Below are positions 21,213-54,593 of a stretch of DNA of 64,000 bases, in pieces. The notes below the pieces were generated by a model, which saw only the letters and a list, made by a program, of their open reading frames with translations, was not told where the DNA came from and did no database searches. The stretch's first letter is position 1. The number at the start of each line of letters is the position of its first letter. The translations under genes and the position numbers were made by a program. Source of the stretch: Isoetes taiwanensis (taxonomy: Eukaryota > Streptophyta > Lycopodiopsida > Isoetales > Isoetaceae); assembly GCA_021234155.1 (NCBI GenBank), contig JAJEKV010000025.1, forward strand, positions 14,998,390 to 15,062,389, in the 5' to 3' direction.

Positions 21213-21383
21213 GATCCCAAAGCCAACTATCCGGCCCGTTGATGCACAAACACATTAACATGCTCGCAGAAACAGAAGCAGAAAGTAACACAGGGTTGGT
21301 GGCATTTAGAATATGACGAATTCCTTGGAAACACAGGTATGGACGAATTCCTTGGAAACACAGGAATGCTTCACAAAGTTTAG
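21213..21383. promoter_or_regulatory. Short intergenic region between divergent kinase and PPOX1-like genes
   Basis: About 170 bases separate the kinase start from the first recognisable PPOX1-like exon. Relative to the second copy (55.23-55.39 kb) it has a duplicated unit of about 25 bases, GACGAATTCCTTGGAAACAC being repeated at 21314 and 21340. The second copy instead has about 240 extra bases holding the kinase's longer N-terminus, so this copy probably lost its original 5' end. No clear TATA box is seen. Confidence 0.4.
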
Positions 21384-28401: not shown

Positions 28402-30255
28402 TTCTGGAAAGCATGCTTGTTAGATGGAATACAGCTAAAAAAAAAATAGCGTCTATATTCAATCGTTAGCCTACGTTAGTGTATTCCTAGGGAAGTGGGA
28501 TGCTTTATATCTAACACAACTTCCTTTCGAGCTTTTGATATTTTCGAGCCGGTTAGCTGTACCTAGATAGAACATGTATAAAATTGGCATGAAAAAATTA
28601 TCAAGCAATTTTAATTAAAATGTTGTAGAAAATATAAGCACCAGATCAAAACCTAAATGGATGCAAGACCTTGTCTGATGCTTGCACCTTGTCTTTATGC
28701 AATGTAAGGCAAGGGAATACTGTGTCAAATGACCTTAGGCGATAGGTGATAGGTCCTCGTAGATTATAGATCCTAGCCATCGAGTTCAAGTCAATAAATT
28801 ATTAGCCATAATCCACATACATGCTATGATAAACGGGCTATGAATTGTTTATCATGATAAACTGTTTATTGTTTATGAGGCCTGAAACCATTTTCGTGCA
28901 AAAGTTGGTCTGATCAAGCTTTATAGTTGAGAGGAAGAGTAGGAATTACAATTTGGGTTTAGTTGCTCCGGCCCAAAAACTTGCTTCTATCCTCGAGCTT
29001 GCCAGAAACCTCTTCTTTGTTCGTGATTATGGTTATAGCGCCTATGGAGAAAAAATTATCTCAAACTTGTTGGTTGAAGAGGTTAAACCTCGTGCTTGCC
29101 CATTATGGCAAATAAATAGGCTTATTTGTCGTAAATGGGCTCTGATCGGGGCTTAGCCCCCTCACCACAAAGTCCCTCTTGCACCTTGCAATTATGCAAA
29201 GCAAGGCATAGTGTTGTGATTTCAACAAGTGTATGTTTACATATTATAAGCTCATGAACTTTCCAGGCCTTTTTTTCCCACGTTGTATGCGAGCAAGCCA
29301 TGTTTCATCCTAACACAGTAGTCTTAGAACAAACGATGTCTCGAGTTCGAGGCCACCCGGAGTCCCATTCAATGTAAGGTGGTTAGGGGCCGGACACAAC
29401 AAAACAATGTTGATGTGGTGTGTTCGTCATCATATGTCTAATCGGATGCTAGTGGCATGGCTTCCTCTTCCTCTTTCTCTTTAACGTTTAAGCATAAAAA
29501 GGGTTTCCTTGTTGTATTCCCTTCTCTGAAATCTTTGAGTAGGAGGAGGTGGTAATACATGTGGCATAGAGATATAAAATATTTCGTGGATTTGAATCAA
29601 AGACTATGCTGTTTTTGCTTTACTTTTCCTCATTTTCATTGATAAGATGGTTAGGTCAAAGTATTTTTTGTGTATCTTGTCTGCTTATGCATTATTTTAT
29701 AACATGTAACTCAATTGTAGGGCTTCATGTTCAAGGCCCCGTGGGGACTACAATGTAAGGTGTCTCCTATCCTCCTCTTCTGGAGTAGTCGTGTGACATG
29801 TGATCACGGCTGACGAGACAATTGGGGACACTCTCGAATCCCCACCTTGTTGGGAGGAAATGGGTCCAATATCATATAAGCAGTATGCCCTAGCACCTTT
29901 CTTTCTCCTCCTCCAATTCCTCCTCTTCCTCGAATAAATTCTGCCTACAATTGCTCTATCCATTTAATCCATCTGTGAACTTATACCCATGGGAAACGAG
30001 GTGAAATAGCAAGGGCCCAAGTTTCTACTCCTCCTTCTCCTCAAATAAATACTTCCTACAATTTCCTTATCATTTACTTTCTATTGCCATTTCAATTTAA
30101 GAAAAAAGTGATGACAAAAGATGAAAAAACAAAACCGTCTCTGCATAAACAATGTTACAAAATGCATATCAATACATGGCAAGTCTGATCCTTTCTGCAA
30201 GGCCTAACTAAAATGTCAAATGCCATTCCATAATCTAAGTCTTTATGCCATTCTA
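28402..30255. other. Non-coding stretch with a perfect palindrome
   Basis: No recognised gene. A 16-base perfect palindrome GTTTATCATGATAAAC is at 28847-28862. Short shared phrases (CAATGTAAGGTG at 29370 and 29750; CTCCTC- and CTACAATT-rich pieces at 29890-29960 and 30030-30065) point to worn repeats. GAGTTCGAGGCC near 29341 looks like a pol III B-box, but no A-box or tRNA fold supports a tRNA or SINE. Confidence 0.4.
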
Positions 30256-30500
30256 TTTTTTTTTTTTTTTTTTTTTTTTTGAAGAACTGTGTCATCAATA
30301 TATTAAAAGAATGGTAATGTTACAAAGCAAGTGAGGAGGAAGGAGAACTGCCTCTAAGGAGACAAATGATACCCGACACTCCCACAACAAACTCACAGAA
30401 AAACTGCAACTCTACTGCTGTACAAACCGACCATCACCATCTACAACACCCAAGAAGTCCCGCCAAATGGGTCTAAGTTAGATATTGGGGTAAAAAGCGA
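30256..30500 (-). mobile_element. 3' tail of a retroposed element with a 35-T (poly-A) run
   Basis: 35 consecutive T at 30256-30290, read as poly-A on the minus strand. Immediately upstream on that strand is CATTCTTTTAATATATTGAT, then GACACAGTTCTTC, which looks like the 3' end of a plant LINE. No RT coding sequence follows, so it would be a strongly 5'-truncated copy. Confidence 0.55.
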
Positions 30501-32841
30501 CATGTTTAAGCGGAGAAAGCATCGCTAAGCAAAGCACCGACACACCTTTCGATTTCGTAGCGCCTTTTCTAACAATGATTTTGATTGTCGAGGTGTAATT
30601 ATTCCACTACCATTGTTATTTTTATTGAATTGTACAAGCCAATTTGCTCCCCGATTGCACTTCGATTCCTGCATTTTGCAAATTGAAGCATCCTCTTCAA
30701 GGCGCTTGCTCCGACTTCTTTGTTTGTTGCTGCTTTTTTTTAAAGTATCTTCTTTTCTCATGGCTGGTGAAGGAATCATCCCACAGCAAAAGCTGAAATG
30801 GCTGGCGGAAAATGTCACTGCAGATGATGGAACCAGTGTTTGGTCTGAGCCATTCGAAAAAGGCAAAATCAAAATCTACTTTGTTCGCCCTCATTTGAAA
30901 CAAATTGACCTGGACTTTGATCGATTTCTTTGTATGGAGATGGAGGTGTCCCGAATAATGAATTGAGGAAGCTAGTAGCATTATCATTTGCATGGGAAAA
31001 CTGTAGTCGGGCAGAGCATAACCCTGAGGCTCATCGGGTTGATTGGGATGCTTACAAGAAACAGGTCAATGTTTGGTCCAGGAGAAAAAGGGATGACATT
31101 GATGTTAAAAAAGAAGATGTTAAAAGGATCAAACCTACAGTTCCTTCATGCCAAAGTACACCTCTAGCTTCAGGCAGATCAACACCTCAACTTGAATTTA
31201 AGGGGGAAAGCAAAATTTTCCTCGAAGTTTTACGTTTCTAATTTAAGTTTCAACATTTCTTTGATTGAAGAGGAGGTTAGTAAGTTGGAAACGCATTAAA
31301 TGTACAACCCTGATCTAGTAAAATAATTAGTACCATTGAGGTAGATAAGAACTCTTCAAAGGGAAGAGAGGATGATTGAGCATGGAAGGAACGAGATAGC
31401 AAGAATGGATGAGTTGTTTCCGCTTTGAATGCCAAAGCGCACAAGAATGATGGAGACTTGAAGCAGATGGAAGAGTTAAAGCAAAAATAAGTGGTGAAGT
31501 ATATTTTGCTCTAAACTGGAGGCTTGCCTTCCAAAGGTTAGTGTTGAAGCATTACAGAGAAGGAAAAGAAGGAAAGATTAAAACTTCAACCGAATTGATT
31601 ATAGTGAAAGCAGTGAACTACTTTAGAAGCCGGTAGACAATTGATGGACTCGTGATATATCAAAAATGTCTATCATAACTATGAAAAGCAAAAAGTTGCC
31701 CTGTTTCATGGAAGATGCATGTCCGCATGTGGATTGGTCTTCAATCCAAAATATAAATTGAGTATGGCATTACCATGTGAACATGTCTATCACTTGGCAT
31801 CTTTGCATGCTTTTGTATGAAAAGAAGACATGCTTCTCGTGTTTGGAGCTGAAGTTCCTGTGGAAGTTTTTGTGGAACTTGGTCTAGAGGTTGCGTGAAG
31901 AAGACTTGCGAGATTCAGCAAAAAAAAGGCATTTGAGGTAGGCATTACTAGTGCATTTGCTTCACGATAAGTTTTCCAATGTTGTCACACCTGTATTTCA
32001 CCCGCTTTTATTATTTAATAAAGCACAGTGGCACTGTGGCTTCACCGCTTCGAGTCACCAAAAATGTTGGTTCCTATCAAGATCATCTCAAGTGTCACTA
32101 AGTCCAAGAAGGAAAGTGTAGAAGCTTTGCGGAAGGTAAGACTCCGATATTTCTTATTTGTGTTTTAATTAATTTAATCTCATTTAAATTGATTTGTGTT
32201 CTAAACAAACAAAAGTTTTTGTAATTCACCTTAGTAAGGGGCCAGCAAAAAGGAGGAAAAACGCTCACGCGTTGTTGAGAGCAGCTCGAAGAATATTATG
32301 AACAACCCGTACAAAAAGGTTCCCCGCGAATTGGCACAAAGACCCGGGTTGAGGAGTGCAAGCTGCAGAGAAAAGTTCCCATCTTTGCAAATGTAGATGT
32401 TCACAAGCGGTGATGAACAACAAGCAAATGAAGATGATGTTGATGCTTGAAGTTGCTGAAATCTTGCCAGAGAAAGGTAAGGGTAAGGGTGAAGCAGCCA
32501 GTTGAAATGGAGGTAGCAACAACAAAAGTCAAAAGAAGATTGGGAGACCCTCAAAGAAGCTGCCACCTCAAGCACCAAAGCAAATAGGTGATCAAGTTGA
32601 TATGATTGTGAAAATGTTAAATGGTAGTTCAGGGTTACGCTTTCTCAAGATATCAAGTCATTGAGTTAGTTTTCGAACATAACATATTGTAGTGTATGTG
32701 AAATCTTTTGCTTTTAATTGTTTTATGTTGTTTGAGAACATTGTTTGAATATTGTAATTGTTTTTCTTTAATTAATGACTTCTTTTAATTCATGTTTAAG
32801 TCATGTTGATGTTTAAGTTTCTTTTTTTATTAATGTTGCAG

Positions 32842-33404
32842 AGGATTTAGAAAAGAAAAAACTTGTCATCCTAGACATTAATGGAGTTTTGGTCAACACC
32901 TTCCAAAAATGAGCAAGAGTAAAGATTCCACCAGGGCTCAAGAAGTATTACACAGCAGAGAAAGTGGTTATTTGCAGACCTTTTCTACAAGAGTTCTTGG
33001 ATTTCTGTTTTGAAAGATTTGAAGTTGGGATTTGGTCTAGCATGATGAAGCACAACATCATACAAATCCTTAATGATGATCCGCCAAAGACACTACATTG
33101 CTAAATTCAAATTCATTGGGGTCAGAATGAATGTGAGGTGCTGCCTTTTATGTTTCTAGGCAGTGCAACCAAACTAGTATTTATGAAGCCAATTGTCAAA
33201 GTTTACATAGCTGTACAGGATGTTGTGCTTGTGGATGACTCTTTGTACAAGACTTTCTTGTCCCCACCAGACACATGCTTAATAGTTGAGAGCTTTGACA
33301 ATGAGGAAAATGATAAGGTATTCAACTACATAAAAGCATGTTTGCACACTTGGCTTCATTCAAAGAATCCTCAAAAGTGGTTGCACCAAAGACTTCCATG
33401 TTGA
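32842..33404 (+). pseudogene. FCP1-like HAD domain (module copy 1)
   Basis: About 187 codons in one continuous frame interrupted by TGA near 32912 and TAA near 33100. Motif I is LDINGVLV (nucleophile Asp, but Asn two residues on). The FERFEVGIWSS segment is motif II, and LVDDSLYK carries the acidic pair. Plant HAD-like FCP1 relatives with D-L-N-G are known, so the DxN change may be ancestral rather than decay. The second copy (40911-41549, minus) shares GIWSSM and LLLDDSLYKSYLSSP. Confidence 0.85.
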
Positions 33405-33570
33405 TGTGGTCAAGGAAGTAGACATCAACATACTCAAACTTGTTGTTGACCACTTGAAAGAACTTGCAAGATGGAAAGTAGCAATTGAGGGAAGCATGCA
33501 ATTGGTGAAAGATATTGTTGGTGTTGCAACTGATATTGTTGTAAATAAACAGGAGGAACCTGCAAGAGAA

Positions 33571-33700
33571 GAAACAACACACATTGAAGATACTGATCAG
33601 ACACACATTGAAGATATTGATCAGATCCACATTGAAGATACCGATAAACAGGAGGAAACTGCAAGAGAAGAAATAACACAAGATCAGACCCACATTGAAG
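33571..33700 (+). repeat. In-frame 24-base repeat encoding THIEDTDQ
   Basis: Three to four near copies of a unit translating as THIEDTDQ, THIEDIDQ or IHIEDTDK, separated by two copies of a Q-E-E-x-A-R-E-E phrase. It forms an acidic tail to the HAD-like gene. Confidence 0.75.
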
Positions 33701-34204
33701 GTACTGACTTTAAGATGTAAATTAAGAACTTCATGTACTTAAGTTGTAACTTAAGATATAACAGCTGTTTCTTTGTGAAGACTGGATATGAGTACATAGC
33801 TGTACACTTTTGTAACAGAACGGATATCAATGTAAATTCAAGGTTTCAGGCATTTACCTACACTTGTGCAGATCATCATTTGTAAACTTTGTTCATTTGT
33901 AAACTTGCAATCTGTTTTCCATGTCCGCCAAGTCTGTTTTCAGAAGTTCATCAAGTTCAGAATAGTTAACCAAAAAATAGAAAGCATGTAAGCGCACAAA
34001 GCATAAAGTATGAAAAGCGGCACCTAGCGCTTTTTCTTTTTAAAGCCGTGAGGACAAGGAACATTTGTGCAGCAAAGAATTTGTTAGTTTTCATTGATAA
34101 CTAATTATAAAGAGTATAAGAAAGAATATGGCGGGAAAGAGCGGTGGTAATATCTAAAAACTCAACCGCTTCTTCGAAGCAAAGAAAAAAAACGGCGAGC
34201 GTAA

Positions 34205-37189
34205 TTAGCACTCTTTTGGAAGGGATGCCATAACTTTTGGCATGTCTCTTCACTCATCTTGAAACTGTTGTTACCAAGATTCTCCATATCAAACTTCATT
34301 GTCGACAAGGTGGCTATACAAACTAGCAACTGGCTTGTCCAATAGCAACTCAAATTGGAGTGCATCTGTTTGCTTGTAGTAATGGCCAGAAACTATAACT
34401 TCTTCTATACCAAATGCAGTACCCCAAGCATCTTCATATGTATCTAACAAAGTGTGTTTAGTCTCTGTACACCTAAGAACATAAAAGTCAACTCCCTCAT
34501 CATCTTCTGGATGTGCATTTACAGCAAAGTTATCTCCAACTTCTAGAAGAGAACTAAGGTCATCTTCTTCTTCATCATCATCATCTTCATCTTCTTCTTC
34601 TTCTTCTTCTTCTTCTTCTTCTTCTTCTTCTTCTTCTTCTTCTTCTTCTTCTTCTTCTTCTTCTTCTTCTTCTTCTTCTTCCCGACTAATTCTTCGTGGA
34701 TGTTTCTCCGAAAGAATGGAATTCATCTTTGGTTTCAGTTCTCATTGTGAGCCATGCTCCTGTAAACGCTTTGTTCGTGCAATCATCCCTTTACCGCATG
34801 AAAGCAATAGGAACAATAGCAAGAGAGGCACACTCAAACTTTGCAGGGGTTCTTTTGTCACATGGTCTGATGCAATGAAGTTTAGAGCTCCCCACATAGT
34901 GTTCTCCCTCCTTCCTTTCAGATTTGTCTACACTTTGGGGATCAATATGCCAAAAGAACACTGCAATATAAAACGGATTCATGCAACTTCAAATCTAAGA
35001 AAAATCTAAGAAAAACAAGAATTTACCTTCTTATATGAGGGTGCGGTGGATTGTTCATCATGTACCGTTCATGAAATCCACAATGTCTTTGGCACGCTCA
35101 ATTTCCAGGCCTCATACTTCAATTGTTCTCTTGCCAAAATCCTTTTCAATATTGCACCTTGTCCATCATGTTCTCCTTGCCATGCTTAACCGGGCAAAGA
35201 AATTCTACTCATACTCATTTCCTTCACTACACACATAGTTCCTTCCTACATTGCTCCTTTAAACTGGGATGTGCAACCATCAACTCAAAAAATATGTTTC
35301 TTGAACTCAATGTTTCAGGTGCTCTAAGCCGGCCAAGATGTACTTTCAAGCAATGTTGTACAAACTTCGGTGCTATGCTCCGTCATCATCGAAATATAAA
35401 AGTGCATTTCCTTTATAATTCTCCTCTCGATTAGTCCGATGGTCTCGACTTGTCTTCTTCTTTCTTTTTTTATCCGCTCGCTTCTCTTTTTCCGCCTCTT
35501 TAACTTCCATCTCCTCTATCTCGGCTTTGGGTTGCATGTCTATATGTGATATGAACCAATTGAGGCTTGGGTCCATGATGCCGAGGGGGCAAGATTGTGT
35601 CTCTTCCGAATTTTAAAGCGTAATTTTCAGCAAAGTCAATTACGAGAGACAATTGCATCTTCGTGAAAGGTATCCAAACACGCCCCGAATTGCTTTACTT
35701 CGCCCGATTGTGCCACATTGGAGGCATGCTTCATGAATTTGGGCAGACTCTCGTTCTTGTATGCAAATCTTGTTACTTTTGCTGGTTTCCTCCCTCCCAT
35801 TTTTTTCTTGGTAGTCTCCTTCATGTATCCAACTTTGTCTGGCGATTTCGGACCATGAACATTCTGTCGGTTTTGCGGTTTGTTTAAAAGCATGTTACAC
35901 GAAGCGCAATTTTGCCAAACGGTAATACCTTTTCAACCGGTTGTTTCCACTCCACCTTGTAATCGGTTTCCATCTTCTCCTTAGGACAAAAGCAAACCTG
36001 TTTATAACACGATTCTTGGCGGTAATATCTTTAAACATCATAACATTGAAGAGACAAACTTAAGAGTACCTTTTCATCCCATAATCTTTGCATGCCAACT
36101 GCAGACATTGATGTTTGTGCCATTCTTCATCTTCTTCTTTAGAGCAGACCATTTGCCTCCAAAAATCACTAATGGATTTATAAACATGGTTCTTGGCACT
36201 ACAGAAGTTACCATCACCACAAACAAACACAATTATTTTGCTTTCTTTTGTGCATCCCATTTGTATCTGTTCTGATTTTGTTGAGTGCTTGCATCACATA
36301 CTCAAAGTGCATGTGATATTGGCAGCAACAGGTCTCTCTTTCTTTTAAACGCCTCACAAAAGATGGCTTCAGCAATTCAAATGTGCGCTGTGAAATCTTC
36401 ATTTCATTGAATTCCTTTTTGAAGGCCATGTAAAATTGCAACTATAAACAAAGCAGAAATCTGAGTTCAAAAAAAATTAAAAGCGACAATCTAGTAAAAG
36501 CGAACAAAGCGGTAAAACATATAAAGCATAATAATTACACGAGAAATTTCAAGCAGTTGTATTGGATGATCAATTCTTTCACCATCTTTTGTAACAAACT
36601 TTCTCACATGCTTCCTGTATGGTGAGACTCTTGTGTTTTCTGTCCAGAACTTGTAAACAGAATTCTTAACCTCATCAGTTATTGCATCTGATCTCTTTTT
36701 CCTTGAAAACATTGACCACAGACCACATTCTTGTTCTGCCATTACTCTTCTTAAGTTGTCGCAATAATGATTTTCTTGATACATGAAGGATGGACTTTCT
36801 TGCTTGCATTATATCTGTCTTCCTTAGTTTCTTTTGCTGATTGAGTGTCTCTTGAACATTTCTAATGACATTCTTCATGATCTTGCTTTGATCATGATCA
36901 ACAAAATCCACCTCCAGTTGCAATTTCTTCTTCACTCTCTTCACAAATCTATGCACCACCAGTGCCTTATCCCCTTCTTTGTGATATTATTGAAATAATC
37001 GTCCAAACTCTTGGACAATTCTTGAAGCCTTCTCGCACTCAAGCCACTGTAAACTTGAGGCTGGATATTTTCTTTCTCCCTCTCCCTATCTCTTTTCCGC
37101 TATCTAGATTGCCTTCTTCTCTCGGCTTGAATTTCTCAGAAAATTTGAAGTCGCTTTTCTTCATCTAAATCTGATGTTGATTGATCCAT
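34205..37189 (-). pseudogene. Transposase-like gene with DFAENY motif (module copy 1)
   Basis: A roughly 3 kb minus-strand gene in several frames. The start at 37189 gives MDQSTSDLDEEKRLQIF. Then come an N-terminal helical region (NVIRNVQETLNQQKKLRKTD), DAITDEVKNSVYKFWTENTR followed by VSP, MKISQRTFELLKPSFVRR followed by RETCCCQYH, and EEWHKHQCLQLACKDYGMKR. The nuclease-like core follows: DFAENYALKF (35620-35637 encodes DFAENY) and, around 35131-35185, HGKEN and D-G-x-G-A-I-L-K-R-I-L. Then FWHIDPQSVDKSERKEGEHY, a 30-plus residue Glu tract, and a C-terminal domain (DNFAVNAHPEDDEGVDFYVL). The combination matches a widespread, largely unnamed eukaryotic transposase-like family; I cannot assign a superfamily. 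Multiple frameshifts and stops. It is convergent with the HAD-like gene. Confidence 0.75.
34591..34681. repeat. CTT (GAA) triplet microsatellite encoding poly-Glu
   Basis: About 30 uninterrupted CTT triplets on the plus strand. On the minus strand they read GAA and encode a Glu tract inside the transposase-like gene, followed by a mixed Asp/Glu stretch. Length is likely to vary between individuals. Confidence 0.95.
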
Positions 37190-38539
37190 TTAGAATCGTG
37201 TTGTACAGAGAATTGTGTTGTCTGAGAAACCGCGGCATAAAGAAAATTAAATTCGGGGGTATTAATACCGGATCATGCTTCCCGCCATAGTCAAATCCTA
37301 TTAACTCTCTACGCCATCTCACAACAACCTCGCCAAATTGATTATGTACCGAATTTGATTTTGCGGGTAGCCATGTCATCGATCCGGAAGCAATTTGGTA
37401 AAAACGGATCATCAGCGTTCCCGCTCTTCCAAGCACCTCCAAGCACAGCCGGACCAAGCGCTGGCAGCGGCCCGCATCGGTGCTTTTGTACCCCAATATC
37501 TAACTTAGACCCAAATGGCAAACTTCCGCTCTACTAATCCCGGGAACACCAGAAAGCTTTGAAATAGCTTGTATGTGAGTCGAGGGAATCGAGAGGCCGC
37601 AGACGCTTGAATTTCGAAAGATCCACAACCGCCGGCTTCCAAATCAGCCACACCAACCAAGCCACGACGGATGCAAGGCTTGCTGCGCAAAGAAGCAAAG
37701 AATCGCCGCCTAGTCAATCTCACGAAACAGCCCCGACCCAATCAGGCAGCCTGCAAGTGAGGGCATAAAACCGCATAATGCCCACAATCTTCAATGATGA
37801 AGGCCACAACAAAGGCGAGAGGGCTCACACATGGCCTAAAGCCCGACTCACAAGGGCATTCACCCCGATACCACGGCCCGCGACACCCTAACCTTCGATT
37901 GGGGAAAGTGAGTCCATGTCCACGCCCAAACCCGCCATTGAGAACCCGAAGCTGCAGAGACTACTTGCCCGGAAGGGGCAGAGTGTTATGAATAGCCAAA
38001 GACGGTAACAAGCCCCGCACAAAACAAGAAGGCACGACATGGGATGAACCTTCCAAACATGCACCACTACATCATCTAAGGGACTATAGGTATGTGTAGC
38101 GGAATACTCCGCCACTTGTTTGATAGTTCGGTCATTTAAGGTTAAGCATCTTCGCCGTGCTTGAATATATGGCTACATAGAAAAATCAGAAGAATTGAGA
38201 GAAAAATTAGCAAGTTTCTCGCTAGGCAAAAGGGTAATAAAACAAAACTTACCCTAGCAGTAGTATAGATTCCTAAAGCTCGGGTAAAAGCACGTTGTGG
38301 TGTTCCAATTCGGCTGTCCCCCAAAATGTGGCGTTGCATCCGCCACTTTTGTGGTATGAAAGTATAATTATGGCCTTTGCTCAACCGTGGTTATTTTAAG
38401 AATGGAGTCCCAATTTGTGGGGAAATTCTAATTTCAAAACTAAAATTCAAATTCCTATTCTTTGGCCCCCTTCCTCGTTTCTTTGCCTACGCCTCCGTTC
38501 TTTGGCTCCTCCTGCTGCAAGCTCAATCCATTGTGGATA
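37190..38539. other. Spacer between inverted module copies
   Basis: No family recognised. 37.3-37.9 kb is GC-rich with many short frames on both strands, none with a motif. If the two modules are one element family, the element ends should lie here; I could not find matching terminal repeats by eye. Confidence 0.4.
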
Positions 38540-39095
38540 TGGATGTCAATGGGAGGTAATCATCCACAAACCCAGAGCATTTCGCATTTAAGAAAACGAA
38601 GAAGAACCAAGGAAGAAGAAATGTTGAAGAAAAGATGCCAGAGGAAAAGAAGAAGAGAAGAAAAATTGGAGCTTGCAGAATTGGCAGAAGGATCCAGTTC
38701 ATCAAGAAGTGCAAGCAGTAAACGCCGTATTGTCCTTAATTTGCTAACGTCTTTCCATAAACAGAATTTTGCAGTGAATGCTGAGGTAGACAATTCAGAG
38801 GGTGTAGACTTCTACATCCTCAAGTGCACAGAACCCAAATGCACTTGAAGATTCATACAAAGATGGATGGGGACAAAAATTTGGAGTGCATGAGGTTATC
38901 TTAAGTGGACTGTATTATCAATTCTTGGGTAATTTTAAGTACATGTTGCTCACTAAACAACCAGAAGCTTCCGTGCACAGCCATGTGGTAAGATATCCTA
39001 AAATTGATATGGACAAAATAGAAGGCACAAACATGTACAAAATTTCACAGGAGACCCATGAAAAAATTATGGCCAGTCTCCCAATAACATTGTAA
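38540..39095 (+). pseudogene. Transposase-like C-terminal domain (module copy 2)
   Basis: A basic and acidic stretch (RRTKEEEMLKKRCQRKRRRE) is followed by NFAVNAEVDNSEGVDFYILK and CTEPK, then, in a second frame after a shift near 38845, EVILSGLYYQF, EASVHSHVVRYPKIDMDKIE and a C-terminus ending KIMASLPITL, stop. The order and many residues match the C-terminus of the copy at 34205-34726 (NFAVNA, EGVDFY, EVIVSGHYY, SHLV, the K-x-D-M segment). Copy 1 also ends in a K-V-M-A-S-L-P frame just before its stop. The N-terminal part of this copy is missing. Confidence 0.8.
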
Positions 39096-39598
39096 TTCTT
39101 TGACACTTAACCAAATTGATGTAATTCTTTGCAAGTGATTTGTTGTTCCAAAGACCCACGCAAAAGCACACATTTTTATATATATATTAATAATAGTGAG
39201 GATGCACAAGGGTGGTGTGCATGGACACGCATGCCGAAATGAAGATTGATTGTTGTTTAAGAATGTACATTTGTGACATTGGAATAACATTAAATTATTT
39301 ATTTTGGTACCATCACTATCCCAACATTCTTGGCAAAATTATATTGTCAAGGCATTTCCTCGATGTGGCATATGTCAATTCCAATGGTCATACGAAATAT
39401 TTAAGCCCCGGTTACTTAATTAATAAACTGGCGTGTGAGGTTTTTCGCATTACACCGGCGCCGCCTAAGCATAGGGATTTAAGCACTAAGCCCCTAATCA
39501 TAGGATTTAAACTCTTCTACGCTTCACGCCTTCCGCCTTAAGCCGGCATCTTGCCCAAATCCTCTTCTTACACCCATTCCGTCTATTTCCTTTGCAAT

Positions 39599-40078
39599 GG
39601 CCTCTGCATGCAGCGGAAATAAAGCACCAGAGTATGTGCTTAAGCAGGTGCCTGAGGATGCGGACGCCGCCCGCAATATCAGAACACCTATTTTTCGAGC
39701 AGGTTCGGGTCTTAAGAAGCAAATGCATTAATCGAGGACCGTGGAGGAAGAAGAAGGTATTCTTTTGTTTTGCAATTTTTTTTTGGTTTGTTTTTCTTTT
39801 GTTCTAACATTAATGCTTTTTTTGTTTACAGAAGTGGAGCAGGAAGTGGAGCAGGAAGTGGAGAATTATGAAGAAGAAGAGGAGGAGAATTGAGGAAGAG
39901 GAGGATGAAGAGGAAGAGGAAGAGGAAGAGGAAGAAGGAAGAGGAAGAGGAAGAGGAAGAGGAAGAGGAAGAGGAAGGCGATGAAGAAGAAGAAAACAAC
40001 CGGTTTTCAAAGAGTTCATTAAGACCCACCAAAAAGGCAGAGAGGGAGGCGGGAATTGGAGGAGAATGTGTGGAGTGA
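39599..40078 (+). pseudogene. Acidic low-complexity gene fragment, unknown
   Basis: ATG at 39599 opens MASACSGNKAPEYVLKQVPE and DADAARNIRTPIF, then a stop near 39729 and a Glu run. A possible intron (GT at 39755, AG near 39831) leads to a long GAA/GGA tract read as Glu-rich in one frame and Arg/Gly-rich in another. The last part carries KGREGG and ends near 40078. I do not recognise it. It lies between the convergent copy-2 genes and could be a further gene of the same element. Confidence 0.35.
39888..39985. repeat. GAA/GAG/GGA purine-rich tract
   Basis: An almost pure purine run on the plus strand (GAGGAAGAGGAAGAG type). Depending on frame it encodes poly-Glu, poly-Arg/Gly or Lys/Arg. Confidence 0.9.
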
Positions 40079-40139
40079 GCCCGAGTCTGAACTGTAAAGC
40101 CCCAAAGCCCCTCAAGACACCCTGAAGACACTGGCACAA

Positions 40140-40910
40140 GGCCTTTTTTGTAAAATATTTTTGTTAATATAAAAAGTTTTTTGTCTCTAGCACTTTGTTC
40201 TTTGTTTGTCATTTTTTTTGCTCTATCAAATATTCTTTTCGTCTATCAAATATATAAAGTTTTTTGTCTCATCTACTTCTTTTTTGTCTCACATTTTGTT
40301 TTTTCCATTATGTAAAGGATGAATTCATTTGATGTTCTTACTTCTATTATCCATGGGTGGCAAAACATTGAATTCTTGTACAGTCCATATTCTGCTTGAA
40401 TGTAACAGTGCTCTAGCTCAAACACTAAGCACTTTAATTAGTTTCAGCAGTGCTTGTGAGTAAGCACTGGAACACACGAGCACTTATGCAATAAACATCT
40501 AGCTTTAAACAGTTATATAGCATAACAGTAAGCACTGCACCTTAACTGCATGACAGTAAGCACTTGATGACATTAACACTTCTGCTAGCGTTAAGGAACT
40601 ACACACTTAGTAAGCATCAGCTGCGATGACGATAGCGATATCTGCCATTAAGACTCATACCGGACTAGCACTTGTAAAGCAATTTTTTTTAAGCACTTGA
40701 TAAGTTTTAAGCACCCCTTGCAGTCAGCATTGAATTAGATATAAACAATATAGCAAAGAATTATAGACAAGTCTGCATTGAACTATATACACAATATAGC
40801 AAAAACAACCTTAAATTAATATAAGATAAAGATGGTGCATGAAAAGTGTAGGATTCCTTGGCCTAAATAAATGACAATCAGGCCAATAATCATAAATGTC
40901 TCAGGCTTAA
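40140..40910. other. Non-coding stretch
   Basis: No coding motif. 40430-40720 contains scattered AGTAAGCACT and TAAGCACTT phrases (about ten), a short-motif enrichment of unknown meaning. It is the 3' side of the copy-2 HAD-like gene. Confidence 0.45.
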
Positions 40911-41549
40911 TCACAGTAATGGAGGATGACAAAGTTCATCACCATAAACCTTCTCCAATTCCTCATTCACAAGGGTGCACAACTGCAATTGTTTTCCAGA
41001 GAGTCTTTCCAAGCATAGCTTCATAATCTTTCTATCTGTCATAGGCCAGGGCTTGCATCTGTGTGTGTTCTTCACCAGTAACTTCATTTTTTCCTCAGTC
41101 TTGGCCTGCAGTATTTCTTCTATCTTTGGGGTGAGTACTGTTAGCACTTCATCACACACATCCATCTTGAATGCAGGTACTAGCAGAAGTTTCCAGGGAC
41201 TGCTAAGGTAAGACTTGTATAATGAATCATCAAGAAGCAAAGTCTTACCTTTGAATCTTGGGTATGACTCATATATTTTCCCAAGTAGCTTCATCATGAC
41301 TGGACAGCCAGGTTTGTTAGGGTGGTGAAAACTGGTCTTCACACATTTTTCCTGTCCCCATACAAATAGAAATCCGTCCCTCAAATCTGGACATAGTACT
41401 TGCAGCACATCTTCTACATTAGAGAGTTGCATTGATGACCATATACCAACACAACACTTCTGTAACAAAGTCTTCAAGAAAAACACTGCTTCTAGTCTGA
41501 ATATCACTTTCTTTCTGCTAGTGTATGTCATTGTCAATCCTGATTCCAA
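40911..41549 (-). pseudogene. FCP1-like HAD domain (module copy 2), N-terminally truncated
   Basis: A clean 212-codon frame. It starts inside the domain: EAVFFLKTLLQKCCVGIWSS corresponds to RPFLQEFLDFCFERFEVGIWSS of copy 1. It continues FLFVWGQEKC, KPGCPVMMKLLGKIYESYPR, TLLLDDSLYKSYLSSPW and a helical C-terminus ending GDELCHPPLL. The motif I segment (LDxNG) is absent, so it cannot be a complete enzyme, although the remaining frame is intact. It faces the copy-2 transposase-like C-terminus tail-to-tail, the same arrangement as copy 1 but inverted. The truncation point (about 41530-41550) meets the start of the third transposase-like fragment. Confidence 0.8.
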
Positions 41550-41555
41550 GCGTAT

Positions 41556-42064
41556 GTGTTCATTTGCACCAAAAGTTTATTTCTTGAGTTTTTGAGGGAT
41601 AAAACATTGGAAAAATTCATAGGTGAAGAATTAAAAGATTTGGAAGCCAAGAGCATCGTTATAAGGATCCTCTGGGATTCCATGCAAACTGTAAAACTCT
41701 CTACCAGCAAAGACTGCCTAGTAGCCAAGAATAGTTGCCTTGCAATGTCTGTATCACGCCGTGCAGATTCTGAAACAAGTGACAAAATCAGCCAGCAAGA
41801 TCTTGGAAAGGTATTAGGTGTTCACCCAAGAAACCTGCAAAAGGCAAAGAAAAAGAGGGAAGAGATCGATTACAATGGTGGGAAATGGGTTTCTTACAAG
41901 AGGGCTAAAAGATTCGATGCAATTTCAGATGAACAGATAGAAAAGATTCAAAATTTGGATTGAGAACACCAGAGTGTCTCCTAACACAAAGGATGTTAGA
42001 ACTAGAAAATTGGAGAGAAATGTAAGAGAAGAACATGCTGCCCACTATCTTGAGGAATCACAGG
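41556..42064 (+). pseudogene. Transposase-like N-terminal region (module copy 3)
   Basis: Frame 41556-41963 includes LGVHPRNLQKAKKKREEIDY and SYKRAKRFDAISDEQIEKIQ. A shift near 41960 continues IENTRVSPNTKDVRTRKLER and HAAHYLEESQ to a GT at 42065. DAISDE, W-I-E-N-T-R-V-S-P and the H-x-x-x-x-L-E block match DAITDE, FWTENTRVSP and HPIQLLE in copy 1. The nuclease core is not found downstream, so the copy is truncated. Confidence 0.75.
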
Positions 42065-42069
42065 TTAGT

Positions 42070-43864
42070 TTATTTCTGTTATTCATGTTTTCTTAGTTAT
42101 GGTGCTTAGTGTGGTCATGTGGTGGTTATTGTGTTGTACAGTGATTGTGGTATACTGTATGCAGCATGTGAATTGTGTGTAGTTGACTCTGAAATGCAGC
42201 TAAATAATATTTAATGTTTGGAATATTTAGAACATGACAGAATTGAGTATTCCTTTACTGGGTGTGTGTACAGTCTAAAAATATTTGAGAATGACAAATA
42301 ACTAACTGATCCTAAGAAGCACAAATTTTTGTTGAATAAAGACAAATTTTTGTCAAATTCAAGTACAGCTCTGTTGGAAAGTATAATATATTAAAAAAAG
42401 GAGCATATCTTACAAAATTTGGCTTTACAAAATTTGGTTTTCCATTGAAAGCTCTGTAGTCGAGAACAAAATTTACATGCATTTCCTAAGCAAACAGAAA
42501 TCTTTGGTATGGGCTCAACGGTGCATCAAAATTATCGCTTTTACGCACTAAAGCATCTAAGCTTTCTGCAATCATCCCAGAATTTAACAAGATCAGGTTT
42601 GCCAAGCTTACGTGATCCCCTCGGTGGTAAGAACGGAACCGCCCGGTAATTCTAAATGTTGCCGAATTCGAGGCGAGCAAGTGACTAATAACAAATGCAC
42701 CGGGCCGTCTTTTGCAAAGAAGATGTAACATAAGGTCATGGACCTTGTCTCGAGCTCACTTCCCATCAATCCGACCCCAAAATAGCCATTGAAGGCCAAA
42801 GATTCAAATCTGTCAGTATGGGTTTAGGGTGGCCGAAATTCAGCAAAGAAGGGGGATTTAGGCATATCCATCTTGAGGAGATTTGTCACGAGCCCCGGTT
42901 AACATATGCCGAAGGGCCTCTCGCTCCACCGCGTGAGGCCGTACCGTATTTAGCATTTGAACATCCCTACCATTAGGAATGAACTTGTTCGTTTGAGAAT
43001 GAAAACGCCAAAAATTAGACGGCAGAGCAGGATTTAGGACCCGATCCTTTTCTAATGATTAGAAGAGGAATGTAATTATTATCGGGGTGTACGAATTTTA
43101 GAAATGTTATGAGAGAGGCTAGCCTAGGCGCATTTTTATGTCGACGAAATAGGATAAAAGTGATGTGATGTGATCACGAGAACATCTGTTGTATTCTCTC
43201 GTAGAATCTGGCGAATACACGTCAATTAAAAACCGATTCGAAAAATACATCTCGCCCGCCAAGGAAAGTGTAAAACAGAATAAACCAGATATTTCGAGAA
43301 TACGGGCCCAAATACGTCAGATTCAGTTTTTAATGAAAAAAATTCAACGCAAACAAAGGGGTAAATTTTTTCCTTTTGTTTTCTTTACCCTCTCGTTGTT
43401 TTGGTCAGGCTTGCCCAGACTTTAACGGCGCTTCAACCTTCTTTTGGAGCAAATAAGGCGTCGAGTACCTCGCCTTTGCCCCATCGTCGAATTCTAAAAG
43501 GTATGTTTAAAAGTTGCTGCCCCATCGCCGAATTCTAAAGGTATGTTTAAGCCGCCATGGCCAACCTTCTTTTTCCGCCTGCATCAAATCAAACAAATGT
43601 AACATTTTCGGTTTGGGCTTTCGGATTAAAAATCAAATTAGCTCGGGGCCAAAATCGATTGTCGTTTTCAAATTTTGTTGTTTTTCTTTGCATATTAATG
43701 GCGATCAAATCACGAGTAAATCCGTCCCCGTAGTATCGAGTCCCCCGCCTTTCTTTCGGTGATGTCTTGCTGGCTGGCATCTTGCATTGCCATCGCCGGG
43801 AGTTGTCAATTTTGGTGTTGTGCGGTTTTCCCGCCAGAATATTTAGAGCTTTTTGTGGAACCAC
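42070..43864. other. Gene-poor stretch
   Basis: No family recognised. A 78-codon plus frame at 43189-43425 is Lys/Gln/Arg-rich (IRAQIRQIQFLMKKIQRKQR) and coiled-coil-like, without other support. A duplication of about 40 bases (GCCCCATCG[T/C]CGAATTCTAA then GGTATGTTTA) occurs at 43478-43508 and 43520-43550. Confidence 0.4.
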
Positions 43865-44612
43865 CTGTGGATGCACTCCTATTCCTAGTAGAATGGGGTT
43901 GATTATCATACCCCCTCCAATGCCTAGCATTCCTCCTAATACTCCTGCAATGAACGACATTATTGGAAGAACATAACGGATTTGTGATCCCTGTGAATTA
44001 TGAACAAGTAAACAAATCAATCTTTTCTCGTTTCTTTGTCATATCCCTCTATTTATATTCTCTTATTTAAACCATTGAACAGTAAGAGAACTTATTTCAG
44101 CATTGGCCGCACATCTTTGATTGGCGCTGTTTTGAATCGAATTTTGAGAAATGGCCCATGCAGTTACAAGTAGTGCAAATGATATCTGCAAAGCTGTCAG
44201 GAACCAGTATCCAATTCCACAGGGTTGAATGCGAAATAGATATTAGCAAAAACTCAAAAAGAGTAATCAACATGATGCTACAAAAAGAGAAGATCAGAAT
44301 AGACATAACAAACCTTATTTGTCTTGCTATCTTTTAGAATCACAAGTCATCACCACCAGCTCCATAGAAGGAATCCAACTAGGTCCTTTTAAACCATTTT
44401 CTGGTACTAATAAAAGGTTGAGATAAAGAATCGTCTATTTCAACAGAAGAAACAGAATCATGCTCATTGTTTACAGCCAAAACACCATTATCATGATGTA
44501 GAGCTCTTTGATAGCACAGAAACAGAATACGGCCGTATTCTCTGTTCTGCCGTTTTATGTTTTCTTGCCTTAATGTTGTTATTATTGCAATAGAAGAATT
44601 TACAGTTTTCAT
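43865..44612 (-). pseudogene. TauE/SafE-type sulfite exporter family carrier, fragment
   Basis: Minus-strand exons of the plant TauE/SafE membrane family (anion exporter-like). An upstream piece has SLSQPFISTRKWFKRT (about 44380-44430), a typical loop before a membrane helix. The next (about 44110-44330) has FVMSILIFSFCSIMLITLFE, then PCGIGYWFLTALQISFALVT, matching the family's C-x-x-x-Y-W-x-x-x-x-L-Q-x-P segment. The last (43990-43865, AG acceptor before it) has LPIMSFIAGVLGGMLGIGGG and MIINPILLGIGVHPQ, the hallmark G-x-x-G-G-x-x-G-I-G-G-G motif. Frames are shifted between and within the pieces, and the N- and C-terminal exons are absent. Confidence 0.75.
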
Positions 44613-44774
44613 ATTTAAAAAATAGAGATTAAGCTGAAAAGATCAAGTACAGATATGATATTTTATGGAATATTCTAAGAGAATATTCCGTATTCTCCGT
44701 ATGCATATTTAACGTATTCGTATTCCGTATTCATTTTTGGGTCCCCGTATTCATTTTCGTATGCATATTATGTC

Positions 44775-45362
44775 ACTGTGGATGTGATGTGTGATGTGGT
44801 GTCGTGATGGTGTGGTGTGGTGTGGGGTGCGTTATGTCTATGGTGTCATGTGGGTGTGTGCATGTTAATGTATGATATGTGTGGATTCAATTTTATTTAT
44901 TCTCCCCCCTCACCCCACCACACCCCATCATCTATCCCACCACCATAGACTACCACCACATTTCGACCACCACATTACCACCACATGCACCACATTGTCC
45001 ATTACCACCACACCCACCATATCCCCACCACACCCCTCCACCACACTCCCACCACCACCACCACACTCAACCATGTACCCACACCACACCCTCCACAACC
45101 TCCACCACCACCACCACCACCACCCACTCCACCACACCACATCACACCACAATCCACACCACACCACCACCACCACACCCCCACCACACTCCACCACACC
45201 ATACCACACACCACCACCACCACCACCCACCCCACCACCACACTCCACCACACCACATCATGCCACCACACACCACAATACACTACCACCACCACCACCA
45301 CCACCCCACCACCACACCACACCCCACCACCACCACACACCACTCCACCACCACCACTCAAT
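44775..45362. repeat. Low-complexity tract switching from GTGGT to CCACCA
   Basis: 44775-44850 is GT/GG-rich on the plus strand (GTGGTGTGGTGTGG). From about 44905 to 45360 the plus strand is CCACCA/CACCAC-rich. The two parts are complementary in composition, so they could pair. The long frames in it, on either strand, are artefacts of composition. Confidence 0.9.
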
Positions 45363-45475
45363 TGTATGCCTTCAATTGAGTCTTTTCCAGCATCAATTAA
45401 ATATGTCCTTGCAACATTAGAACAAGTTATCATCATTGCTAATAGCATTTGGTTTTCAGTCAAACACACCACCAC
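45363..45475 (-). other. Short coding-like piece beside the MULE left end
   Basis: The minus strand reads ENQMLLAMMITCSNVARTYL followed by IDAGKDSIEGIQL without stops. It looks like an exon fragment, but I do not recognise the family. It abuts the MULE terminus at 45476. Confidence 0.25.
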
Positions 45476-45875
45476 GGCTCGGGATAGTCTTACCCTGGTT
45501 TCGGGGGATCAGGAGGAGAAAATACAGCCTCCTCCGGCATCCCCCGCCATCTCGGACGGAATCCATTTCAGGCCCTCCCCCTCCTCCTCCCCTTTTCCGT
45601 CTTGACACGCGTGAGGGGCCCGCAGAACTGGGTCGTCCACCCCGCCGACACATCCGGGCGTCAGGTGGTGTTCCCGCCTCCGGTATCACCAAAAAAACTA
45701 CACGGCGATTCCGCCCTCTGGAATCACCAACATGTGATCCCGGCCTCGGGATCACTATTCCTGGCCGATAGCGGTATCGAATCAGAGGTGGAGATCCCGC
45801 CTCGGGATCACCGGAACCCGGCCGTAATTCCTTCCTCGGGATCACCCACGATGCGGCCGATATCGGGCGATCCGA
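45476..45875 (+). repeat. Left TIR of the MULE
   Basis: Pairs with 54208-54590 in inverted orientation. It carries several GATCACC / GGTGATCCC half-sites, for example ACATGTGATCCCGGCCTCGG near 45730, which also occur in the internal arrays. Confidence 0.88.
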
Positions 45876-46324
45876 TATCGACGCTAAGTATCCCCTCGGG
45901 ATCATCAGTGGGTTAGGGGACCATGCCGCCCTCAAGGGTTCAATACCCGGATGTGATTCCACGGAGGGGAGCGGAAACCGGACAACTTGGGTACATCGAC
46001 AACTAGGGAGACGCCACGTCGACGGTGGGGATTCTGGAGGAAGGGAATTCATTCTGGCAATGGCTAAGTCCGACATTTGTGCTCAAAGATCCTTTGCCCT
46101 TCAGAATCGCTTCTCGAGCGAAAGGGCATTTTTTGCCGAATCTCATTGAAGTCTTCATTTGCGCTTGACCCCGACGATGGGTTTAAGGTACAAGCGAGCT
46201 AGTGCCATCGGGAACTCGTTTTTTTTTGTATTCAAAGCTTATTTTAAGCCTTTACGTTTTTTGAGGATGGAGGAGTCGATTAACTTAACTGGAATGGTGC
46301 ATTAGAAGAGCTTCGGCACGGAAG

Positions 46325-48560
46325 ATGCCGGACTACTTCAAAGACATCGCAGACCTTGGATCTGACCAAGAGGTTCAATCCCCGAACAAAAAAAAATTAA
46401 GGGCAGAGGCCAGATTCAAAGGGGTTTCGCCAAAGAAGGTTTCCGGGTTGAGGGTTCGGTCGACGGTCAAGGGGAGGAGGAGGCAAGGAGAAAGAAAATG
46501 CAGAACTTGGGTGCCAAAAAGGCGCCGGGATCTGAGGGGAGGCCTTGAAAAGTAATGTGGGAATGCTTCAATGTAAATCCGGCCGAGGAATTGGCAGGTT
46601 CCGACCCTTTGAAAGATTACAGGTATGATCAGATTCTTCGAAGATGGCTTTGCCAAGTAGGTGACTGCACCAAAACCTACAGCAGGAAGGTGGAATTGGA
46701 GAATCACAGGTTCCGGGTGCATGCAATATATGAAAATTTTAGGGTTCCAGATCAAGGGGCCGAATTCCCAAAAATAAAGCTGAGGTCAGTGTAAGAGACT
46801 ATGGGAAGATCAGGGTGCAGAGGACTCTTGATCCCAAATTCAGCCACAATCTCACCAGGAAACTTCAAAGGCAAGTGCAGCAGCTGAACGTGTGGCAGAT
46901 GACCAAATCGACCTCGGCCTTCTCGATGAAACGAAAGGGAGCGAAGTTCATTAATCCAGCAGAGTAAGAAAGGAGGCCCAAGAACTTGAATTGCAGGAAG
47001 AGCAGATAAGGGAGGTCAAAGAAAAGATCAGGGGGCGGTATGACAATTTACCAGACAAGGAATTGTTTGGTGATTTGAGCGCCAATTGGATGATGACGAT
47101 GTGAGCGAAGAGTTAGAGGCTGCAAGGACCCGTGAATTTACCTCCCCCCTCCTCCCAAAACTCCGAGTTCTATTACCCCAGCCCGGCAGCGTGCCCCTAG
47201 GAAGCCGATGCGATTGTGGCAGAAGAGGGATTTTTGCCTCGATGGCCCGAACCATATTATTCACCAAGAAGAGGACAAGGAGCAAGAAAAGGAAGAAGAG
47301 CATGCATCTGAAGATGAATTGGCTCCCCTCCCCAGCAAGATCAAATTGTATTATTTGTATACACTCGAACCCTTATTCTTTGAGAATCTATTATCCTATG
47401 AGAGAGGGATCAGAAGGGATCTTTAGCAGTTCAAATTATCTTTAAATTACCCAATTGTGGTCGAGAGTCCTCTCTTGAAGGCGGGCAGCAAATCATCCGA
47501 TGTAGAATTCCATATCTCTGAGTTAGAAGCCGTCAAATTTACCACTATTGCAGGTGCCCCGGGTTCCGGGATTCGACCATCGATCGCTAGGGTTATTTTC
47601 TTGTAAGTGTAGCTCATGTAGGATCTATTTTTCCTTTGTAGCTAAATTCAGCATTTGCAGGTGCTTGCACACTCAATTCCATAAACGATGTCACCATGTC
47701 CTCCTCCACCCTCACGCTTTTGGCCTGTTCTAAATGGTACCAAACTAGGCCTGTGTGGTGCCTACGAGCAGTTTGTGAAGCTAATTCCGGGATCCCCCTT
47801 TGGTAAGGCCGTGTGGAAAATCTAGCATGCGCAGTTCTACTACATACCGGTTAATGCTAGATAAATTGGGTTTGGGAAGTGGAATTTTTATTGCATTTCT
47901 AGTTCCGGGTTTGAATTGATTCGCGGCTTTGTCCTTGGTAAAGGCCATTGAGACTGTTCATTTTGGTGGTTGATCCTTTGGCATGCCAAACTCAATAAGC
48001 CTTGCCCCTTGCATGCATGTGCATTTCGATTCTTTGATCCCCTCCATGTCTAATACGCCGGTTCATCACTTTGTGAGTGTAACATTTGCTAACTATACAT
48101 TCATAGCCTATCTTCTAATGCATTGACTTGCAGGTTTTTAAGTGATGTATTTAAGAGGTGGAGGCACGAGGCATCAACATTGCATAATGCACCAGTAATC
48201 TTGATGGAAGCTCCACAGCAGCACAACCACCAGGATTGTGGCATCTATATTATTGGTTGTGTGCAGAAATTCATCAGAGAAATCTACAACAAGAAGACAG
48301 ATGTGAGTTATCATTGTCTTATCTTTTGTCTTTTTTGGTTAGCAAATTTATGTACTGTTCATTTATAATCTACTGTCTTCATTCAACCGGGACTGGTTTG
48401 CCAAAGAAGACATGGACAATTTGAGGACAGGGTTCAAGGTGATGCTGCAGAAGTTAAGTGACTGCGTAAATGCAGGAAAATCAACCTTCTACTTGCCCGA
48501 GGGTAGCAACCAATTCACACGGCCCTTGACCCGGTTGATGCTGAATGGTCCATGATCTGA
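46325..48560 (+). pseudogene. ULP1-like (C48) protease gene with C2H2 finger, carried by the MULE
   Basis: 46325-46552 opens MPDYFKDIADLGSDQEVQSP and becomes very basic. 46555-46794 encodes RWLCQVGDCTKTYSRKVELE then NHRFRVH, a C-x4-C-x12-H-x4-H zinc finger. A Glu/Lys-rich coil follows (LQEEQIREVKEKIRGRYDNL near 47000). At 47950-48330 are remnants of the ULP1 catalytic core: a His in a V-H-F segment (47959-47961), HFDSL with the Asp at 48028-48030, and PQQHNHQDCGIYI with the oxyanion Gln and nucleophile Cys (48237-48239). A likely intron (GT at 48303, AG near 48385) leads to a final exon with MDNLRTGFKVMLQKLSDCVN. ULP1 enzymes process SUMO; in MULEs their role is unknown. The frame breaks before the His-Asp part. 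Confidence 0.78.
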
Positions 48561-48779
48561 ACTCTCTCCATAACAGAAAAAAGGTTGTTCCTTATTCAAC
48601 ATGTAAATTGTCTGCTATGTTTGAAAATATGACAGTTTTTCAATGGTTAATTGAAGTGGGAACTTGCTTTCCTTTTTTCTTGTCTGGGTTCACTCTTGAC
48701 TTGTCAATCTGCATCCCATGGTACTCATTGAAAATCACTGAAACCATTCAAGCACTTCATAACAGATGAACTGAATTTG

Positions 48780-49312
48780 AACACCTCTGGGATCCCGAAA
48801 CTTGAATAGCTCTGGGATCCCGAAATTTGAACACCTCCAGGATCCCCAGGGAGCCAAATAATAAAACAACCATTAAAAAAGACAAACCACTAAAAAAGAC
48901 AAACCATTATTATGGTGATCCCGGAGGACGGGATCACCACAATAAGATTCCGTCCTCCGGGATCCCCAGACAGCCAAAAAAAAAAAGAATAGAATTACTT
49001 AGCCATTAAAATCACGTCCATGATTGGTGATCCCGAGGGCGGGATCAACAATGTGGTGATCGGGAGAAGCGGCATCAAGCTGTGTGAGTGATCCCGAGGC
49101 GGGATCACCACAAGAAGATTCCGCCAAAGGGATCACCACATAGCCAAAAAAAAAAGAATAGAATTACTTAGCCATTAAAAAATCCCGTCAGCGGTTGGTG
49201 ATCCCTAGGATCGAGGACGGATCATAATGGTGATCCCGGAGGGCGGCATCAACTGTGGTGATCGCCGATCACCACAAGGAGATTCCGATCCTCCGATCCC
49301 CCAAAGAAAAAA
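48780..49312. repeat. Internal tandem array 1 of the GGTGATCCC palindrome
   Basis: Units of roughly 160-175 bases, each with A-rich spacer text (AAAAAGAATAGAATTACTTA at 48979, 49151 and, varied, 49310) and one or more near-palindromes of the form GGTGATCCCGGAGG...GGGATCACC. The same half-sites occur in the TIRs. Confidence 0.8.
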
Positions 49313-54590: not shown

Positions 54591-54593
54591 CTG

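Follow-up and report, generated by a model that had tools for sequence, protein, structure and literature searches.

In published passages on the Sola superfamily, its members encode a DDD transposase, produce a 4-bp target-site duplication (TSD), mostly measure 2-9 kb and are present in moss (PMC10741241). AAAT is found among the TSDs given there for Sola2 (PMC3627910), and a Sola1 element is described in which the strand opposite to the transposase holds a gene (PMC12477816). The accessory proteins carried by eukaryotic cut-and-paste transposons reveal how an element deals with host control, and the same passages already describe a Fanzor or a methyltransferase as the passenger of Sola elements (PMC3627910, PMC12477816). 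The locus discussed here lies in a window of 64,000 nt from Isoetes taiwanensis (GCA_021234155.1, contig JAJEKV010000025.1, positions 14,998,390-15,062,389 of the forward strand), the whole stretch of DNA that was analysed. The reading that we favor, with a probability of about two in three, is that one interval of this window, copy 1, is a dead Sola-like transposon with a HAD gene, and that an adjoining relative has the same gene pair.

Copy 1 occupies 30469-37512 (7,044 bp) and is flanked by perfect 24-bp terminal inverted repeats (TIRs) and an exact 4-bp duplication, AAAT. The left TIR (30469-30492, plus strand), which starts GGGTCTAAG, agrees at 24 of 24 positions with the reverse complement of the right TIR (37489-37512, minus strand), and the complete 24-bp end reads GGGTCTAAGTTAGATATTGGGGTA. 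The two copies of AAAT are situated at 30465-30468 and 37513-37516. Length 4 alone gives a match at these ends; duplication lengths of 2, 3 and 5-10 fail. Random pairs of sites at the same spacing have any 4-mer in common in 110 of 20,000 cases and AWWT in 3 of 20,000, AAAT itself being seen at one insertion. The longest exact inverted match between the 1.5-kb flanking stretches is 25, compared with a maximum of 12 among 20 first-order resampled sequences, and the second-best match to the end anywhere in the window is 16/24. When the whole window was scanned for pairs of 16-bp ends bordered by a 4-bp duplication, 34 matches were returned; among the 15 listed, two are perfect pairs, namely copy 1 and one in a cluster of GATC palindromes, and 8 of these 15 have GATC duplications, at 45.7-50.8 kb. 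One bounded copy only was found, with neither a second insertion nor an empty site. A convergent gene pair, with a HAD-side gene on the plus strand and a transposase-like gene on the minus strand, is wholly enclosed by the TIRs and the AAAT duplication. Copy 1 is probably a dead, recognizable cut-and-paste DNA transposon that belongs to the Sola superfamily or to a near neighbor, and it appears to have been mobile.

The HAD-side gene begins with an open part in two frames (30760-31240, plus strand; MAGEGII...), read from its translation, whose best Pfam match (0.041) is below cut-off. We infer that this part and the HAD domain make up one gene, and the exon joins of the gene are likewise putative. 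A possible remnant of a RING-like zinc finger (CxxC ... CEHVYHL ... CxxC, in two frames) is located at 31716-31851 on the plus strand. When it is joined across the frame change, its matches to three RING families have E values of 0.033-0.18 and all lie under the Pfam cut-offs; the best of these (E 0.033) reaches 14.3 bits versus the 27 set for the RING profile, the query being a decayed, joined sequence. The FCP1/NIF-type HAD domain (32847-33392) forms, with a repeat-rich tail in another frame, the segment 32847-33720 of the plus strand, and the stop at 33720 is in a different frame from the domain. This part is decayed, with two in-frame stops. With X placed at these stops, it matches PF03031 (NIF) with E 1.5e-15 (57.7 bits versus the curated cut-off of 21.8) over residues 5-167 of 182. 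The match to the dullard-like model TIGR02251 (7e-7) is far under the cut-off of that model, and UBLCP1 (3shq) is matched at E 4.2e-4 by a two-sequence profile and at E 0.44 only by the single sequence.

Motif I of the FCP1/NIF-type HAD family is DxDxT/V. In copy 1 motif I reads DINGVLV, followed by GIWSS and VDDSLYK; the catalytic form is thus absent from this decayed copy, with DINGV at 32871-32894. Because asparagine takes the place of the second aspartate in this motif of copy 1, the HAD protein may be catalytically dead. The change may also be later than the death of copy 1.

The decayed transposase-like gene runs in collinear pieces over 34205-37049 on the minus strand. It is recognized from its translations and from related fragments at 38744-39095 and 41880-42060, and upstream of 36763 it is represented by open frames alone. 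The acidic motifs DFAENY (35637-35620), DGC, which forms part of DGCTSQFK (35284-35258), and GEHDG (about 35179-35156) stand in order in the collinear pieces, and a C-terminal domain follows at 34531-34292, all on the minus strand. DFAENY has a single occurrence in six frames, in copy 1. We take these to be transposase-like motifs, a provisional naming that goes back in part to the first-pass annotation. No Pfam family, transposase or other, matches the transposase-like pieces, and transposase is accordingly used here as a putative label. AlphaFold models of the transposase C-terminal domain (mean pLDDT 46.1) and of the copy 2 HAD part alone (41.6) were too poor for a fold search.

Next to copy 1, fragments of a second unit repeat the pair in flipped order. 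A transposase-like C-terminal fragment with one frame change is located at 38744-39095 on the plus strand; joined across the frame change, it matches copy 1 with a tblastn E of 1.9e-24 against the window. It faces a HAD/NIF fragment without motif I (40911-41576, minus strand; open for 221 codons), which matches PF03031 at E 7.2e-7 (29.5 bits versus the cut-off of 21.8) and has no match in NCBIfam. The HAD parts of copy 1 and copy 2 are 31-32% alike (31% over 164 aligned columns; tblastn E 1.7e-15 against the window), and the transposase C-termini share 67% over 27 aa and 43% over 54 aa; none of 500 shuffles reached the score in any of these comparisons. These results bear out the first-pass annotation, which had described a tail-to-tail HAD and transposase-like arrangement occurring twice in inverted orientation, with both partners alike as protein: a NIF domain is present in both HAD parts, and the stops lie where it had placed them, at 33720 and 40911 for the HAD genes and at 34205 and 39095 for the transposase-like genes.

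At the DNA level, a single 19-bp piece (E 0.4) is all that matches between copy 1 and 37513-43000. The convergent pair is therefore repeated as protein, without DNA similarity, and for this reason the pairing looks old and a recent inverted duplication is unlikely. The HAD alignment is alike at codon positions 1, 2 and 3 to 0.45, 0.53 and 0.35, and positions 1 and 2 are more alike than position 3 in 4 of 4 transposase pieces, a signal that is partly forced by the protein-based alignment.

The third transposase-like N-terminus that had been proposed is retained in part. In an open frame at 41544-42064 on the plus strand, the end (41880-42060) resembles the N-terminal region of the copy 1 transposase in two pieces (56% alike across 18 aa and 45% across 38 aa; E 2.4e-5), and for neither piece did any of 500 shuffles reach the score. 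The upstream stretch 41580-41879 has no match to the compared piece of copy 1, its score being reached by 117 of 500 shuffles. A mutual truncation of this fragment and the HAD fragment at 41576/41580 was considered and dropped, because the part before 41880 is without a demonstrated relation to the transposase. The second and third units are truncated fragments. Ends for them were sought as 16-bp repeats with at least 13 matches and a 4-bp duplication, and none were found with the left arm in 37513-38760 and the right arm in 41000-46500, or with the left arm in 39100-41900 and the right arm in 42064-48000. The same scan recovered copy 1 around its known ends as a positive control and returned nothing in one background stretch. 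The earlier proposal of one mobile element carrying a HAD gene is supported for copy 1, where 24/24 ends and AAAT enclose both genes; for the other two units a complete element is unsupported.

The recurrence of the pair could also arise if related transposons captured different host FCP1/NIF-type genes independently, the HAD gene then being ordinary host sequence with no role in the element. The lower likeness of the HAD parts (31-32%) relative to the transposase C-termini (43-67%) is consistent with such captures, as is the good fit of the general eukaryotic NIF profile to the copy 1 HAD part; the tail-to-tail orientation with the transposase, however, occurs twice, and we consider two captures unlikely. 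FCP1/NIF-type genes are common in eukaryotes and one bounded copy alone is present, so the copy 1 HAD gene might be a host gene enclosed by transposon ends, its recurrence next door being chance. This is highly improbable, as the HAD gene lies wholly within one matching end pair with one duplication and the pair recurs. If a single immobile locus had been duplicated in inverted orientation, the alternative named in the first-pass annotation as one that would overturn its proposal, the flipped order of the two genes would be accounted for; this is rejected as barely credible, given the 19-bp match at E 0.4 as the sole DNA-level likeness between copy 1 and 37513-43000, and ends and a target duplication around copy 1 only in the stretches scanned.

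In the favored reading of copy 1 as a dead Sola-like transposon, the minus-strand transposase would bind the 24-bp inverted ends, excise the element and insert it at an AAAT target cut with a 4-bp stagger. The protein of the second, convergent gene would have an FCP1/NIF-type HAD domain at its end and, perhaps, a RING-like motif and an N-terminal part ahead of it. The adjoining fragments would derive from a relative that carries the same convergent pair and diverged anciently, which makes long retention of the HAD gene as an accessory gene more likely than a single accident. A phosphatase-like gene may then be regular baggage of this transposon family. More speculatively, the HAD protein could be a phosphopeptide-binding helper whose target might be, for instance, the RNA polymerase II tail or the transposase. 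A broader proposal is offered tentatively and is rather doubtful: in an old lineage of plant DNA transposons, selection acting for the element would have retained an FCP1-like HAD protein whose gene adjoins the transposase gene and faces it. This protein, which might include a RING part, would either direct RNA polymerase II or host silencing where the element lies or regulate the transposase by way of phosphorylated sites. An FCP1-type passenger, if true, would connect a transposon with phosphorylation or with the tail of RNA polymerase II, and the exact 24-bp end allows the claim to be checked directly in any genome where the family occurs.

Six of six scans of virus and prokaryote collections gave no relative (viral contigs with the copy 2 HAD part, the transposase C-terminal alignment, the copy 1 HAD part, the DFAENY piece and the 24-bp end; genome contigs with the transposase C-terminal alignment), which says little about plants because the collections consist of viruses and prokaryotes. 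In the literature, the titles and abstract openings among the matches listed, a scope mostly outside subscription papers, include no transposon with a NIF, FCP1 or HAD passenger, and there was no match for DFAENY and two variants or for FCP1 in combination with a transposase and a terminal inverted repeat. An FCP1-like HAD protein would accordingly be a class of transposon accessory protein absent among the literature matches listed.

Compared with FCP1/NIF-type HAD phosphatases (dullard-like, UBLCP1), copy 1 is alike in its PF03031 match over residues 5-167 of 182 and differs in having DINGV for the DxDxT/V of the family and in its place inside a transposon. Sola1-1_Ec32 of the brown alga Ectocarpus is described, like copy 1, as carrying a gene opposite in strand to the transposase; in contrast to copy 1, that gene encodes a ParB-like and DNA methyltransferase protein, and the element measures 21.5 kb (PMC12477816). 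Sola2 elements carrying Fanzor1 are likewise presented as Sola-type elements that bear a passenger protein and have AWWT or AAAT as their duplications, the passenger being Fanzor1, a TnpB relative, rather than a HAD protein (PMC3627910). The passages on the superfamily at large mention no phosphatase-like gene, unlike copy 1. The placement of copy 1 beside Sola is putative and is based on the fit of the 4-bp duplication, the size and the motif pattern. Copy 1 resembles Sola1 of moss and Sola2 of amoebozoa, as those passages portray them, in a 4-bp AT-rich TSD, with AAAT listed for Sola2, in a size inside 2-9 kb and in occurrence in land plants (moss for Sola); if the acidic motifs are read correctly, a three-aspartate transposase may be a further likeness.

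The 7,044-bp interval 30469-37512 (copy 1) is most simply understood, with a probability of about two in three, as a dead cut-and-paste DNA transposon, probably of the Sola superfamily, which carries the gene of a HAD protein with an FCP1/NIF-type phosphatase-like domain as a long-kept accessory. The terminal inverted repeats of the interval (GGGTCTAAGTTAGATATTGGGGTA, 30469-30492 and 37489-37512) are identical at 24 of 24 bases, and AAAT is present on either side, while flanks of 2, 3 and 5 to 10 bases mismatch; copy 1 is thus a 7,044-bp element with a 4-bp target-site duplication. Self-comparison of the window places the inverted match at 30462-30498 and 37519-37482, and the longest exact inverted match between 29260-30759 and 37300-38799 is 25 bases; in 20 first-order resampled sequences it never exceeds 12. 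Random pairs at the same spacing had a 4-mer in common in 110 of 20,000 draws, and an AWWT 4-mer in 3 of a separate 20,000. When the whole window was scanned for 16-bp ends flanked by a 4-bp duplication, 34 matches came up; among the 15 listed were two perfect pairs, copy 1 and one within a GATC palindrome cluster. We also note GCC-AAAT to the left (30462-30468) and AAAT-GGC to the right (37513-37519) of the element, which would make the original target, GCC AAAT GGC, a near-palindrome.

The two genes of copy 1 are convergent. The transposase-like gene is on the minus strand, in broken, collinear pieces from about 37049 to 34205, those upstream of 36763 being open frames alone. DFAENY (35637-35620), DGCTSQFK (35284-35258) and GEHDG (near 35179-35156) would represent the three acidic (DDD) motifs of a transposase; the pieces match no Pfam family. 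The plus strand has an open frame starting at 30760, then a possible RING-like remnant at 31716-31851 (E 0.033-0.18 against three RING families, each under cut-off), the HAD domain, and a repeat-rich tail in a different frame ending at 33720. These parts may form a single spliced gene, and a plausible 3' splice site is seen by eye at about 32840, just ahead of the HAD part. Copy 1 is dead, because stops and frame changes interrupt both genes.

The two HAD-like and three transposase-like parts proposed in the first-pass annotation are present about where it placed them. Pfam NIF (PF03031) matches the HAD of copy 1 (32847-33392, plus; E 1.5e-15) and that of a second unit (41576-40911, minus; E 7.2e-7), with 31% identity over 164 aligned columns. 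The second unit, flipped relative to copy 1, is also convergent; its transposase C-terminus (38744-39095, plus) matches that of copy 1 at 67% over 27 residues and 43% over 54 residues, and the gap between the genes is 1.8 kb versus 0.5 kb in copy 1. A third transposase-like N-terminus had been proposed from 41556; it sits in a plus-strand open frame (41544-42064) just past the second HAD fragment. The segment 41880-42060 holds two short pieces matching copy 1 (E 2.4e-5, against the window). The part before 41880 failed its control (117 of 500 shuffles), and its plus frame has no known relative here. In the five comparisons (HAD, two transposase C-terminal and two third-fragment matches), 0 of 500 shuffles each reached the observed score. 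The third piece cannot share a gene with the preceding C-terminus, so at least one further copy is involved. The second HAD fragment (minus) and the third transposase fragment (plus) lie in open frames that overlap by ~33 bp (41544-41576). No ends were found around the second or third unit under the rules of the whole-window scan.

A recent inverted duplication is a very unlikely origin of the flipped pair, since the sole DNA-level match of copy 1 to 37513-43000 is a 19-bp piece at E 0.4. Codon-position likeness of the HAD pair (first 0.45, second 0.53, third 0.35), and of all four transposase pieces, in which positions 1 and 2 are more alike than 3, is what one would predict had both genes kept coding during their divergence, and serves as supporting evidence only, as protein-guided alignment favours such an outcome.

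Proteins of the NIF/FCP1 type have phosphoserine peptides as their targets, the RNA polymerase II tail being one example; their motif I is DxDxT/V, in which the second aspartate is the acid/base. The copy 1 HAD reads DINGV, so this protein may bind without cleavage, a reading taken from the decayed copy 1, copy 2 being devoid of the motif. A phosphopeptide-binding helper of the element would be the most likely role, albeit on balance an unlikely one. That an old transposon lineage keeps the FCP1-like protein by selection for the element is a tentative proposal, somewhat improbable as it stands. Viral and prokaryote collections yielded no relatives in six scans, structure models of the copy 2 HAD and the transposase C-terminal domain were both too poor for use, and a transposon with a NIF/FCP1-type HAD passenger was not found among the literature matches listed.

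Other features occur in the window. An imperfect 31-bp inverted repeat (45476-45506 and 54560-54590) encloses ~9.1 kb with pieces of a MULE transposase (PF10551, E 2.7e-5, 24.9 bits where the cut-off is 27.6) and of a Ulp1 protease (PF02902, E 0.0012, 19.2 bits, below 20.7); no matching target duplication was found by eye. The stretch 45700-50800 holds a cluster of short repeats, palindromic and with GATCCCGGAGG-like cores. A kinase-like coding segment occurs twice at 89-95% identity (20804-22219, PF00069 E 6.2e-31; 54591-56193), the second copy beginning one base past the repeat end at 54590. A 741-codon Tc5-type transposase-like frame at 56953-59178 (DDE_1 6.9e-23, HTH_Tnp_Tc5 9.3e-8) is open and thus possibly a young element.

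Copy 1 is probably to be filed as Sola by its features, not by transposase sequence. Sola elements have a 4-bp duplication and a DDD transposase, are mostly 2 to 9 kb long and occur in moss (PMC10741241), with Sola1 present in Physcomitrella (PMC9033089); copy 1 shares the duplication length and, at 7,044 bp, lies inside this size range. The duplications described for Sola2 are AWWT and AAAT (PMC3627910), the latter common to copy 1. An Ectocarpus Sola1 element likewise carries an extra gene on the strand opposite to its transposase, a ParB-methyltransferase gene (PMC12477816) where copy 1 has a HAD gene.
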